DNA from: Haloferula sp. BvORR071
Lineage (GTDB): Bacteria; Verrucomicrobiota; Verrucomicrobiia; Verrucomicrobiales; Akkermansiaceae
DNA: 64,000 nt
Reading direction: 5' to 3'
Assembly (NCBI RefSeq): GCF_000739615.1
Contig: NZ_BATP01000047.1
Location: forward strand, 62,001 to 126,000
In this document: positions 41,341 through 45,203 of the stretch, one piece after another
Numbering within the stretch: position 1 is the first letter of the stretch
How the letters are laid out: each line of letters opens with the position of its first letter
Made by a program: the position numbers and the translations under genes
The notes under the pieces: generated by a model
Seen by the model: only the letters and a program-made list of their open reading frames with translations
Database searches by the model: none
Told to the model about the DNA's origin: nothing

Positions 41341-41364
41341 GCGGCTTGCAAAGCCGCGCTCCCA
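41341..41364. repeat. Dispersed palindrome, family A, copy 5
   Basis: GCGGCTTGCAAAGCCGCGCT followed by CCCA, 18 bases before the ABC exporter start. A leader hairpin there could affect translation. Confidence 0.68.
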
Positions 41365-41381
41365 CGTCTCCCATCCCCGCC

Positions 41382-43166
41382 ATGCCGAAGGCGAAGGCGG
41401 GCGCGGAGAAGAAGAGAAGTGACATCAAGGGTGGACTCGCGTGGGTGCTTTCCTATGTGCGGCCCTATCGGGGGATTTTCATTCCCTCGGTCATCGCGCT
41501 CTTTTTGACCGCCGGGCTCTCGTTGGCCTTTCCTTGGTTCCTGAAAGATCTCGTCGGCGACCCGGCGGATGCGTGGAGGAAGGGCGTGGACGCGGTGGCC
41601 ACCCGCAAGAAGGCCGACGAGAAGATCCTCTGGCTGATGGGGATCCTCGCGGTCCAAGCCTTCGTCGCCTACCTGCGGGTGCGCGGTTTCTCGCGGGCCG
41701 GGGAGTCCGCGCTGAATGACCTGCGTCGCGATCTCTTCGGGCACTTGCTCAAGTTGCCGGTGCCCTTCTTCCAGGACCAGCGCTCGGGCTCGATCAGCAA
41801 TCGCGTCTCCGCCGACCTTGTGACGGTCCGTGAGACCTTTCTGAACACCTTGCCGCAGGCCGCGCGCCACAGCGTGATTCTCACTGGCAGCGTCATCGCC
41901 GTCTTCTGTTTGTCCTGGAAGCTCTCGCTGGTGATGCTGGCGTGCGTGCCCCTTGTGGTGCTGGCGGTGGCGATCTCCGGGCGCAAGGTCCGCAAATTCT
42001 CGCGCGATGCCCAGGACTCACTCGCTGAGGCCGGGATGGTCATGGAGGAGAGCGTGCAGGGCATTGCTGATGTGAAAGCCTTCTCGAACGAGGGCTTCGA
42101 GAAGACCCGTTACGATCGGGCGCTCGACCGCTTCTTGGGCGTGGCGCTGCGTGGCGCCGCGGCACGCGCGGCCTTCTTGTCCTTCATCATCTTCGTGATG
42201 TTTGGCACCATCGGTTGCGTGGTCTGGTATGGCTCGCACATGCTGGCCAGCCACGCGATTGACCAGACCAACTTCCTTGGCTTCATCATCTTCAGCGTCT
42301 TCGTCGGCGCTTCGCTGGGCTCTATGCCTGAGGTCGTCTCGCAGCTCCAGGCGATGTCCGGTGCGACCGAGCGCCTGCGCGAGATCATGGCGGAGAAGCC
42401 GGAAAGCAGCGGCAGCCGCGAGATCGCCAGGCTCGAAGGCGCGCTGGCCTTCGACAATGTAAGCTTCCGCTATCCCTCGCGGCCGGAGGCTCCGGTGCTG
42501 CACGAGCTGTCCTTCACCGCGGAGCCGGGCAAGCGCGTTGCACTGGTCGGTCCCTCGGGTGCGGGCAAGTCCACGGTCTTCTCGCTGATCCTCGGCTTCA
42601 ACCGCCCGGAAAGCGGCCAAGTGCTTTTCGATGGCCACGATGCCGCGGACTTCGAATTGGCGGCGCTGCGCAAGCAGATCGCGGTGGTGCCGCAGGAGGT
42701 CCTGCTCTTCGGCGGCTCGATCCGCGAGAATATCGAATACGGCCGCCCCGGTGCCAGCTCTGCGGAGATCGAAGCCGCTGCCAAACAGGCGAACGCTCAC
42801 GAATTCATCTCCAAGCTACCCGAGGGCTACGACACCACCGTCGGCCCGCGCGGGGTGAAGCTTTCCGGCGGTCAGCGGCAACGCATCGCCATCGCCCGCG
42901 CGATCCTGGCGGACCCGCGGATCCTTCTTTTGGACGAGGCAACGAGCGCCTTGGACACCGAGAGCGAGCGCCTCGTGAATGAAGCTCTCGAGCGCCTGAT
43001 GGCAGGCCGCACCAGCCTCGTCATCGCGCACCGGCTGTCCACCGTTCGCCATGCGGACACCATTCTCGTGATGAATCACGGCAAGCTCGTCGAGAGCGGC
43101 ACGCATGCCGAGCTGATCGAGAAGCAGGGGACCTATCACCTGCTGGCGGAGACGCAGCTCTTGTGA
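41382..43166 (+). CDS. MsbA-type ABC exporter, fused permease and ATPase
   Basis: The 594-residue half-transporter has six membrane spans in the first 325 residues and an ATPase domain in the rest. Walker A LVGPSGAGKSTVFSL (near 388), Q-loop region AVVPQEVLLFGG, signature VKLSGGQRQRIAIARA, Walker B ILLLDEATSALD and the H-loop VIAHRLSTVRHAD are all present. Related proteins flip lipid A or export lipids or drugs. A basic N-terminus (MPKAKAGAEKKRSD) precedes the first span. The ATG at 41382 is used. It is monocistronic, with the REP-bounded RAYT element directly downstream. Confidence 0.92.
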   Translation: MPKAKAGAEKKRSDIKGGLAWVLSYVRPYRGIFIPSVIALFLTAGLSLAFPWFLKDLVGDPADAWRKGVDAVATRKKADEKILWLMGILAVQAFVAYLRVRGFSRAGESALNDLRRDLFGHLLKLPVPFFQDQRSGSISNRVSADLVTVRETFLNTLPQAARHSVILTGSVIAVFCLSWKLSLVMLACVPLVVLAVAISGRKVRKFSRDAQDSLAEAGMVMEESVQGIADVKAFSNEGFEKTRYDRALDRFLGVALRGAAARAAFLSFIIFVMFGTIGCVVWYGSHMLASHAIDQTNFLGFIIFSVFVGASLGSMPEVVSQLQAMSGATERLREIMAEKPESSGSREIARLEGALAFDNVSFRYPSRPEAPVLHELSFTAEPGKRVALVGPSGAGKSTVFSLILGFNRPESGQVLFDGHDAADFELAALRKQIAVVPQEVLLFGGSIRENIEYGRPGASSAEIEAAAKQANAHEFISKLPEGYDTTVGPRGVKLSGGQRQRIAIARAILADPRILLLDEATSALDTESERLVNEALERLMAGRTSLVIAHRLSTVRHADTILVMNHGKLVESGTHAELIEKQGTYHLLAETQLL

Positions 43167-43183: not shown

Positions 43184-43220
43184 CAAGGGCACGTAGTCCC
43201 GCGCTTTAGCCGGACGAAGT
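43184..43220 (+). repeat. REP-like palindrome, left copy
   Basis: CAAGGGCACGTAGTCCCGCG continues CTTTAGCCGGACGAAGT. It is the left end of the RAYT element. The core CCGCGCTTTAGCCGG can fold, with a TTTA-type loop. Confidence 0.8.
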
Positions 43221-43290
43221 AAGTGAAGAGCTGTCTTTACCCCGGGCCCCCGGGTGAATGCTCCCCCCAGAGGATCTTCAGGCGCGCCGG

Positions 43291-43881
43291 TCAGTCATCC
43301 CAGCCTCTCCCGTAATCCAGCACGGGATACTGCTTCCAGATCCTGACCGCCGATTCCCGGTCCTCCGACTCGAGAAAATCCAGGGCGCTCGAGAATGGCC
43401 AATCCAGCCAGGATTCCACATAGTCATGCTTCACCGGATTGTGATGGATGTAGTTGATCGTCGCCCAGAAGTGATCGCTGTTCTGCATCGCGCGATCTGA
43501 GGCGGAATGCCACACCTGTCGTCCGCGGGTATCTTCCTCGCCATTCCATTGAAAGGAAGTCTTGCCGTGAAGTTCGCCGAGCAGCTTCACCGTGGCGCGG
43601 ATATCTGCGCTGGGAACGAGGACATGATAGTGGTTCGGCAGCACGCACCAAGCGACGGGTTGGACGGGCAAATGCTCCACAAGCATGCGCGAGAAGGTCT
43701 CCAAACGATCCTCCGAATAACCGATATGATCACGGTGCTCATAGCAGGCAGCCGAGATGTGAGAGTGGATGTTGCCTTGGTCGAAATGAGGCGGACGATG
43801 CCAAGGACGCTTCAATAGCTTCCGGCGCGCAAGCCAAGCCTCCCGCTGGGCGGGGCTGAGCTTGCGCCACTGGTAGGACAT
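43291..43881 (-). CDS. REP-associated tyrosine transposase (RAYT, Y1/IS200-like)
   Basis: The 196-residue protein matches the TnpA_REP/RAYT family of the Y1 transposase superfamily, single-strand DNA nucleases that act on REP hairpins. Family marks are RPWHRPPHF near the start, the HUH pair in WCVLPNHYHVLV (His-x-His), WHSASDRAMQNSDHFW, and the tyrosine motif NYIHHNPVKHDYVESWLDWPFSSALDF. The catalytic tyrosine is expected in NYIHHNPV. The start at 43881 (MSYQWRKLSPAQREAW) is chosen because upstream codons read into the repeat region. It is flanked on both sides by the repeat it presumably recognises. No other transposase is nearby. Confidence 0.9.
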   Translation of the reverse strand: MSYQWRKLSPAQREAWLARRKLLKRPWHRPPHFDQGNIHSHISAACYEHRDHIGYSEDRLETFSRMLVEHLPVQPVAWCVLPNHYHVLVPSADIRATVKLLGELHGKTSFQWNGEEDTRGRQVWHSASDRAMQNSDHFWATINYIHHNPVKHDYVESWLDWPFSSALDFLESEDRESAVRIWKQYPVLDYGRGWDD

Positions 43882-43940
43882 GATCGTGCTATAACCTATA
43901 GGATCCCAGAGGTGCAAGGGTGTAGCAGGCGTCGAGGGTC

Positions 43941-43977
43941 GCTTCGTCCGCCTGAAGGCCGGGACTACGTGCCCTTG
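43941..43977 (-). repeat. REP-like palindrome, middle variant copy
   Basis: Read on the minus strand it begins CAAGGGCACGTAGTCCCGGC and continues CTTCAGGCGGACGAAGC. Its ends match the left copy, but both halves of the central stem are changed together (GGC/GCC in place of GCGC/GGC), which preserves pairing. Confidence 0.75.
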
Positions 43978-44067
43978 GATTGCGGCCCGATTAGAGGTCC
44001 GGGGAGCTGGCTACCCCGGTGTGGTGCATTCACCCGGGGGCACTTGGTGAGGCCCGCTCTTCTGGTT

Positions 44068-44104
44068 GCTTCGTCCGGCTAAAGCGCGGGACTACATACC
44101 CTTG
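44068..44104 (-). repeat. REP-like palindrome, right copy
   Basis: Read on the minus strand it begins CAAGGGTATGTAGTCCCGCG and continues CTTTAGCCGGACGAAGC. It differs from the left copy at three of 37 positions and has the opposite orientation. Confidence 0.8.
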
Positions 44105-44207
44105 TCTCGCGGGCCCATTGGAAATCCGGGGCCAAGCTGTAATCGTCACCGCCCGCGCGCGTTGCATTCTTGCACCTCATCCTCCGCCTACTACCCTTCC
44201 CAGCACC

Positions 44208-45203
44208 ATGAAGACTTGGCATTACCACAGCTCCTCCGGTTCCACCGCCACCACTTCCGATGAAAACCTGCCTGAACTCGTCGGCGCGGGAACCATCACC
44301 GCCGCGACCTTCATGTGGACCCAAGGCATGGCTGGCTGGGAGCCGGCGGCCAAGGTGTTGCCAGAGCTGTTCCAAGGCCAAGGCGCGCCGCCTCCGCCCT
44401 TGCCACCCGGCGGCGCTGCTCTTGGCGGCAAGCGCTCGCACCAGATCGATTACGAGATCATCGGAGAGTCGATCCAGATGGTAGAAATCGAGCTCGATCC
44501 CGGCGAGACCGTGATCGCCGAAGGTGGTGCCATGAACTACATGGACGATGGCATTTCCTTCGAGACCAAGATGGGCGATGGCTCGACGCCGGACACCGGC
44601 CTGATGGGCAAGCTCATGGCCGTGGGCAAGCGCGCGCTGACCGGTGAGTCGATCTTCATGACCCACTTCACCAACCGCGGCGGCGGCAAGAAGCGTGTCA
44701 CCTTTGCCGCGCCCTACCCGGGTACCGTGGTGCCGGTGGACCTCAGCCAGTACGGCGGCGAGCTGCTCTGCCAGAAGGATGCCTTCCTCTGTGCCGCGCT
44801 CGGCACCCAGCTCGGCATCGCCTTCAACAAGAAGCTCGGCGCCGGCCTCTTCGGCGGGGAGGGCTTCATCCTCCAGCGCCTCAATGGCGATGGCATGGCC
44901 TTCGTGCATGCCGGCGGGACCGTGGTGCGCAAGGAGCTGAAGGGCGAAAAGATCTTCGTCGATACCGGCTGCCTGGTCGCCTTCACCAAGGGCATCAACT
45001 ACGACATCCAGCGTGCGGGGAATTTGAAGTCGATGGTCTTCGGCGGTGAAGGTCTCTTCCTCGCCACCCTGCAGGGCCACGGCTCGGTGTGGCTCCAGAG
45101 CATGCCCTTCTCGCGCCTCGCCCAGCGCATCACCGGCATGTATGCCAGTGGTAAGGATTCCGGGTCGGTGATCGGCGGCCTCGGCAATCTCTTCGGGGAT
45201 TGA
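44208..45203 (+). CDS. AIM24/TIGR00266-family protein with N-terminal GYF_2 domain
   Basis: The 331-residue protein begins [20 protein letters not shown] and [19 protein letters not shown], a GYF_2 domain (residues 1-60) that binds proline-rich peptides. A Pro-rich linker leads to the AIM24/YdjI-type domain from about residue 75: [35 protein letters not shown], then [24 protein letters not shown] and [24 protein letters not shown]. The AIM24 fold is found in mitochondrial and bacterial proteins of unknown role. The ATG at 44208 is just before the GYF_2 start. Confidence 0.86.

Follow-up and report, generated by a model that had tools for sequence, protein, structure and literature searches.

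The RAYT gene that lies between an ABC exporter and an AIM24-domain protein in Haloferula sp. BvORR071, within the 64,000-nucleotide stretch of DNA that was analysed as a whole (the window), forms with the inverted REP copies around it an ordinary bacterial REPtron, a term in use for such units (PMC3733652, PMC6006769, PMC8266576). We consider it probable, at roughly 60%, that the RAYT is a domesticated one and that the locus goes back to an old insertion, followed by an inversion in place and by repeated loss. In the usual picture a RAYT keeps its place as REPs spread. A REPtron present at a single site in either orientation, together with relatives that are RAYT-less there, offers a small natural system in which to ask about recombination between flanking REPs and about any part played in it by the RAYT.

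Organization of the locus

The RAYT is encoded by a minus-strand open reading frame (43291-43881; 196 aa from the ATG) between inverted, GTAG-tagged REPs. The outer inverted pair (43184-43222 and 44066-44104) is 39 nt long and has three mismatches (36 of 39 positions agree, 92%); its arms lie 843 nt apart, and the similarity runs on beyond the REPs into arms of about 81 nt that are 83% identical. The gene and the outer inverted ends had been recognized correctly in the initial annotation, which put the repeat at 37 rather than 39 bases and overlooked a third REP (43942-43980) that is situated between the 5' end of the RAYT and the outer right REP and is oriented like the latter. The features are as follows:

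41346..43166, plus strand: ABC exporter, left neighbour, collinear in the related genome G003
43184..43222, plus strand: left REP, outer end of the inverted repeat, with GTAG tag, bulged stem, TTTA loop and GAAG (54.5 bits with model R1)
43223..43264, plus strand: left-arm tail (GAAGAG ... CCCGGGTGAATGC) within the 81-nt arm (83%), of a sequence type seen in half of some genomic REPIN doublets
43291..43881, minus strand: RAYT (TnpA_REP-like Y1 HUH transposase), 196 aa, with NHYH at residues 83-86 and Tyr144 in NYIHHNPVKH
43942..43980, minus strand: inner right REP by the 5' end of the RAYT, where the core unit probably ends on the right (60.2 bits with R1)
43981..44010, plus strand: stretch following the inner REP, similar in shuffle comparison to the host flank that follows the outer one (probable local tandem duplication)
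44023..44065, minus strand: outer right-arm tail, inverted counterpart of 43223-43264 by arm comparison
44066..44104, minus strand: outer right REP, with a stem variant common to the left REP and found nowhere else in the genome (59.3 bits with R1)
44105..44150, plus strand: right-hand host flank, with homology to the flank of G003 and to the intergenic sequence of G007, which is RAYT-less
44208..45203, plus strand: AIM24-domain protein, right neighbour, collinear in G003

The two right-hand REPs are part of a 68-nt direct repeat (78% identity, spacing 127). About 30 nt behind the inner right REP resemble those behind the outer one, a likeness equalled by 1 of 1000 shuffles; in the outer copy this sequence is host flank, matching the RAYT-less G007 (0 of 1000), G003 (3 of 1000) and G009 (14 of 1000). 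No match was obtained between the sequence behind the outer right REP and the flank of G010 (251 of 1000), nor between the inner copy alone and the flanks of G003, G007, G009 and G010 (735, 596, 354 and 77 of 1000 shuffles as good, respectively). Since both right-hand REPs are followed by similar sequence, which is host flank behind the outer one, we read the right end as a probable local tandem duplication that leaves 43184-43980 as the core unit, an interpretation rather than a proof.

Matches to a 27-base REP consensus with at most three mismatches occur three times in the window, all at the RAYT locus, against a maximum of 0 in 100 dinucleotide shuffles, and chance is excluded as their origin. 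All three REPs have the GTAG tag, and the altered stem retains complementarity; folded as single strands they score no better than shuffles (z 0.44, -0.75 and 0.19; -1.37 for the genome consensus).

The RAYT protein

The protein matches the NCBIfam model REP_Tyr_transpos (NF047646) with 66.3 bits (E 2.7e-18), which is under the curated cut-off of 80, an annotation rule and no biological definition, and Pfam Y1_Tnp with 19.5 bits, under the cut-off of 23. Its best sequence match in the PDB is 4er8, a TnpA_REP bound to a REP hairpin (E 0.0011), with the region of Tyr144 aligned, and the fold predicted by AlphaFold2 (mean pLDDT 85.2) likewise has 4er8 as its top Foldseek match (E 1.4e-8, TM 0.56/0.65). 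In alignments of 11 and 40 sequences His84, His86 and Tyr144 are invariant, and Asn83 and Tyr85 invariant or nearly so. The hallmark NP(L/V)(R/K)xG adjoining the tyrosine, described for RAYTs in PMC2817692 together with a conserved threonine near the N-terminus, reads NPVKHD in the window protein and NPVKHG in the alignment consensus.

Six further RAYT homologues exist in the same genome, 27-34% identical to the window RAYT, and no near copy of it was found elsewhere in that genome (next best 34%). A 1024-base stretch compared with the genome gave a single full-length match, the locus itself, among the 40 of 64 candidates scored; the other 39 were partial, three of them inside the unit. The idea that the unit is a movable cassette finds no support in these searches. 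Relative to the RAYT of G003 the dN/dS ratio is low (0.08), a rough value with dS near saturation.

A dispersed REP family

The REP is dispersed genome-wide, as had been anticipated in the initial annotation, with at least 35 covariance-model matches in the 7.8-Mb genome (150 candidates were scored per genome, hence all such counts are lower bounds); a pattern search yielded 8 matches versus 0 for the reversed-pattern control. The 28 copies gathered from fetched genomic loci have a consensus of about CAAGGGTATGTAGTCCCGCCTTCAGGCGGACGAAGC, with GTAG tag and bulged stem. Inverted doublets with their GTAG ends outward are among the genomic REPs (e.g., C20:126015/126107, C14:13311/13402 and C40:187471/187559), compact ones being about 120-127 nt long, and this polarity is both that of the REPIN form and that of the window unit. 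The left and the outer right REP have an identical 27-base core, of which these are the only two exact copies in the genome; the sole further match within three mismatches (at three) is without the variant. No REP of this family was found near the six other RAYT loci of the genome (0/6; 1.5 kb fetched to either side). Taken together with the at least 35 genomic matches, this distribution suggests that the REP is likely the substrate of the window RAYT, which had been proposed from the locus alone.

G003 contains at least 28 REP model matches, and REPs of the same type are found in G007 (at least 17) and G009 (at least 24), yet these two genomes are without a RAYT of this subfamily (L195, L196, L204, L205, L211, L212, L217, L218). 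There were no matches in G010, the sister of G003, among the 150 candidates scored with the covariance model.

REPs around related RAYTs

A unit as compact as this had been taken for unusual, on the view that RAYTs normally lie beside scattered REPs, and the analysis does not bear this out. In our survey of the subfamily a GKAG-tagged (GTAG or GGAG) hairpin was present on both sides in 52 of 78 loci, on one side in 11 and on neither in 15, a count that accepts either hairpin orientation without requiring an inverted one, while 17 of 1728 control windows, placed at fixed steps from the gene and unmatched for intergenic DNA, had a tagged hairpin. The loci stem from a scan of genome contigs (80 of 350 relatives retained) and from relatives found separately, 90 loci being reduced to 78 by the removal of six repeated contigs (among them L118, of which the count includes no other copy) and of six with less than 200 nt of flank. 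The detector allows a bulge and demands a TTYA loop that was picked after inspecting relatives, so that the figure of 52/78 partly reflects this choice. It also undercounts, as in G003 (L046), where it reports a hairpin on a single side although R1 detects a REP on each; an earlier detector without bulges missed most REPs and was dropped. Stems vary among species, and tag and loop persist around the RAYTs of relatives. Inverted flanking REPs are a described RAYT arrangement (PMC2817692), and a paper from 2013 presents REPs as inverted repeats that flank rayt genes on both sides (PMC3686654); unrelated terminal repeats or no REPs are reported for some RAYT-like genes (PMC3733652, PMC6006769).

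Several other loci of the survey deserve mention. A RAYT of the window subfamily lies downstream of alaS in the same orientation at 11 distinct loci (L123, L130, L133, L138, L143, L144 (=L050), L149, L151, L154, L176 and L185; alaS identified by Pfam in L133 only), and L167 and L181 also have alaS on that side of the RAYT, but on the other strand. RAYT matches with an internal stop codon (L143:4001-4594 and L178:4001-4591) are possibly decaying copies or frame slips. RAYT relatives of about 50-54% identity were also encountered in MAGs labelled as KSB1, Acidobacteria and Planctomycetota groups (L115, L125, L129, L166 and L190), which suggests wide transfer or binning errors.

The ABC-AIM24 site in related genomes

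A full-length AIM24 orthologue is present in 15 of 18 genomes of the genus, and the ABC exporter adjoins it within the fetched stretch in nine (both counts including the own genome); in the other six no ABC exporter was seen in the fetched stretch, some of these lying at contig ends. Of the nine sites, two (own and G003) contain a RAYT and seven are RAYT-less, which bears out the earlier proposal to look for an empty site between the two genes. The RAYT-less gap of G012 holds 948 nt of other sequence. In four of the seven RAYT-less relatives (G001, G009, G010 and G012; L085, L080, L078 and L081) other inverted repeats lie in the gap, which would fit a preferred insertion site. A candidate REP scar close to the predicted position in the gap of G010 (16 of 18 bases) was matched by 1 of 300 shuffles, but by 37 of 300 with a consensus query, and came out of 14 tests; it is not relied on, and model R1 found no REP in that gap up to E 10.

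At the same site in G003 the RAYT is 72% identical at the amino acid level and encoded on the opposite strand, with one REP on each side, and the flanks are collinear (85% for the ABC exporter, 87% for AIM24, with a DNA identity of the flanks of 80-81%). Both RAYTs are sisters with 99/99 support in a tree of 45 RAYTs. RAYT, upstream region and 5' REP form a single homologous block on the other strand in G003 (68.6% over 697 nt), and the left arms and host flanks are homologous as well. In a gyrA+rpoB tree, G003 groups with the RAYT-less G010 (98/99) and the window species with others (98/97).

The pS of the RAYT pair is 0.735 versus 0.48 and 0.46 for the flanking genes. It is also higher than in most syntenic genes with comparable protein identity, as taken from a contig-wide list that includes antisense shadow frames and of which only plausible genes were read. 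Because its pS exceeds that of the flanks, the window and G003 RAYTs may not be simple orthologues. It is possible that a weaker codon bias (GC3 0.66-0.71 vs. 0.83-0.86) and fast evolution of the RAYT are behind the high value, RAYTs being described as fast-evolving (PMC2817692).

Among nine non-identical pairs that are syntenic on both flanks, the window and G003 are the one flipped pair, and of the eight unflipped ones L047-L059 has non-orthologous RAYTs and four (among L133, L138, L149, L151 and L154) share the alaS site and are non-independent; L113, L144, L164, L167 and L170 are repeated contigs and were left out of the count. In L047 (G017) and L059 (G006), of about 1.3-2.3 kb, one gap with the same neighbours holds RAYTs of two subfamilies with different flanking repeats. 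Since these RAYTs are only 31% identical, separate arrivals at one gap do happen.

A proposed history of insertion, inversion and loss

By analogy with the E. coli and Stenotrophomonas enzymes, on which the model of REP binding and nicking is based (PMC8266576), the HUH/Tyr enzyme would bind the GTAG-tagged REP hairpin as single-stranded DNA and nick beside it, and the RAYT would help to copy REPs and REPINs elsewhere, its gene staying put. We propose that an ancestor of this section of the genus acquired the REPtron between the ABC and AIM24 genes, that recombination between the inverted REP arms may then have flipped it in place in one lineage, with conversion of the arms, and that it would have been lost in several other lineages. 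The identical outer REP cores, unique in the genome, are as expected of recombination between inverted repeats. Ling and Cordaux describe homogenised repeats as a signature of repeat-mediated inversion of insertion sequences (PMC3004938), and according to PMC8450116 recombination takes place among REPs. Likewise, REPs that persist in G007 and G009 without the RAYT subfamily are as expected after loss, although they could belong to another RAYT. As G003 groups with the RAYT-less G010 and the window species elsewhere, a single insertion needs several losses, and the lack of REP matches in G010, the single flipped pair among nine and the weak folding of the window REPs also speak against it; the alike outer arms could moreover stem from local duplication without inversion. 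That the RAYT itself flips its gene at the REPs, so that inversion in the gap would be RAYT-promoted and reversible, seems to us improbable. Were it so, orientation and read-through from the neighbours would differ between lineages. We found no inversion of a RAYT or REPtron in the literature searched, which took in few subscription journals and in part excerpts of papers.

The two orientations could instead result from two independent insertions, or REP-mediated replacements, of related REPtrons into the same permissive gap in the window lineage and in that of G003. The separation of the two species in the species tree, a RAYT pS well over that of the flanks and of most syntenic genes of like protein identity with synonymous sites near saturation, the reuse of another gap of the genus by unrelated RAYTs (G017 and G006) and the other inverted repeats in the gap of four of the seven RAYT-less relatives would all fit such a history. 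It has to be set against the fact that each of the two RAYTs has the other as its nearest relative (99/99), that the upstream sequence is alike as far as the 5' REP and that left arms and host flanks are homologous; REPtrons are also described as not seeming to transpose as a unit (PMC6006769). We regard two insertions as a possible but rather doubtful account.

A gene between inverted repeats at a site that is RAYT-less in seven of nine genomes might also suggest a recently arrived, active autonomous insertion element, either IS200/IS605-like or a cassette bounded by terminal inverted repeats, and a very recent insertion had indeed been considered in the initial annotation. This is very unlikely given the single full-length DNA match (40 of 64 candidates were scored), the lack of any other protein above 34% identity, the long arms with only 83% identity, the occupied site in G003 and the near-saturated synonymous sites, and the window protein fits the RAYT model much better than the IS200 model (66.3 vs. 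13.8 bits). Least credible, and hardly to be expected at all, is that the gene is an ordinary one, unconnected with any transposase, and that the inverted repeats around it only terminate transcription or stabilise mRNA: a REP does lie just past the stop codon of the ABC exporter, and RNA roles have been proposed for REPs (PMC3733652), but the repeat belongs to a dispersed GTAG family that stands by the window RAYT and is absent beside the six others (fetched 1.5 kb), and the RAYTs of relatives have the same arrangement with different stem sequences.

Comparison with known systems

GTAG REPs have already been reported in Verrucomicrobia, namely in Opitutus terrae (PMC3733652), which belongs to another genus. 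With the REPtrons and RAYTs of E. coli, Pseudomonas and Stenotrophomonas, as these are presented in PMC2817692, PMC8266576 and PMC3390384, the locus shares a Y1 HUH gene between inverted GTAG REPs, dispersed REPs with inverted doublets, and a RAYT less conserved than its neighbours. Unlike those, the window RAYT belongs to a verrucomicrobial subfamily with a CTTYAG-type loop, and a unit that faces opposite ways at the same locus in two species is not described in the available text of the three papers. Inverted REP doublets, here about 120-127 nt when compact, also characterize REPINs (PMC3116915), but our lower bound is in the tens of REPs and not in the hundreds, a family of Pseudomonas being given as 612 members (PMC2817692). 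The proposed history has its closest parallel in ISWpi1 of Wolbachia (PMC3004938), where an element is likewise reported as inverted in place with unchanged flanks and homogenised repeats; there, however, it is an insertion sequence in closely related strains, whereas here it would be a RAYT in diverged species, with several losses along the way.
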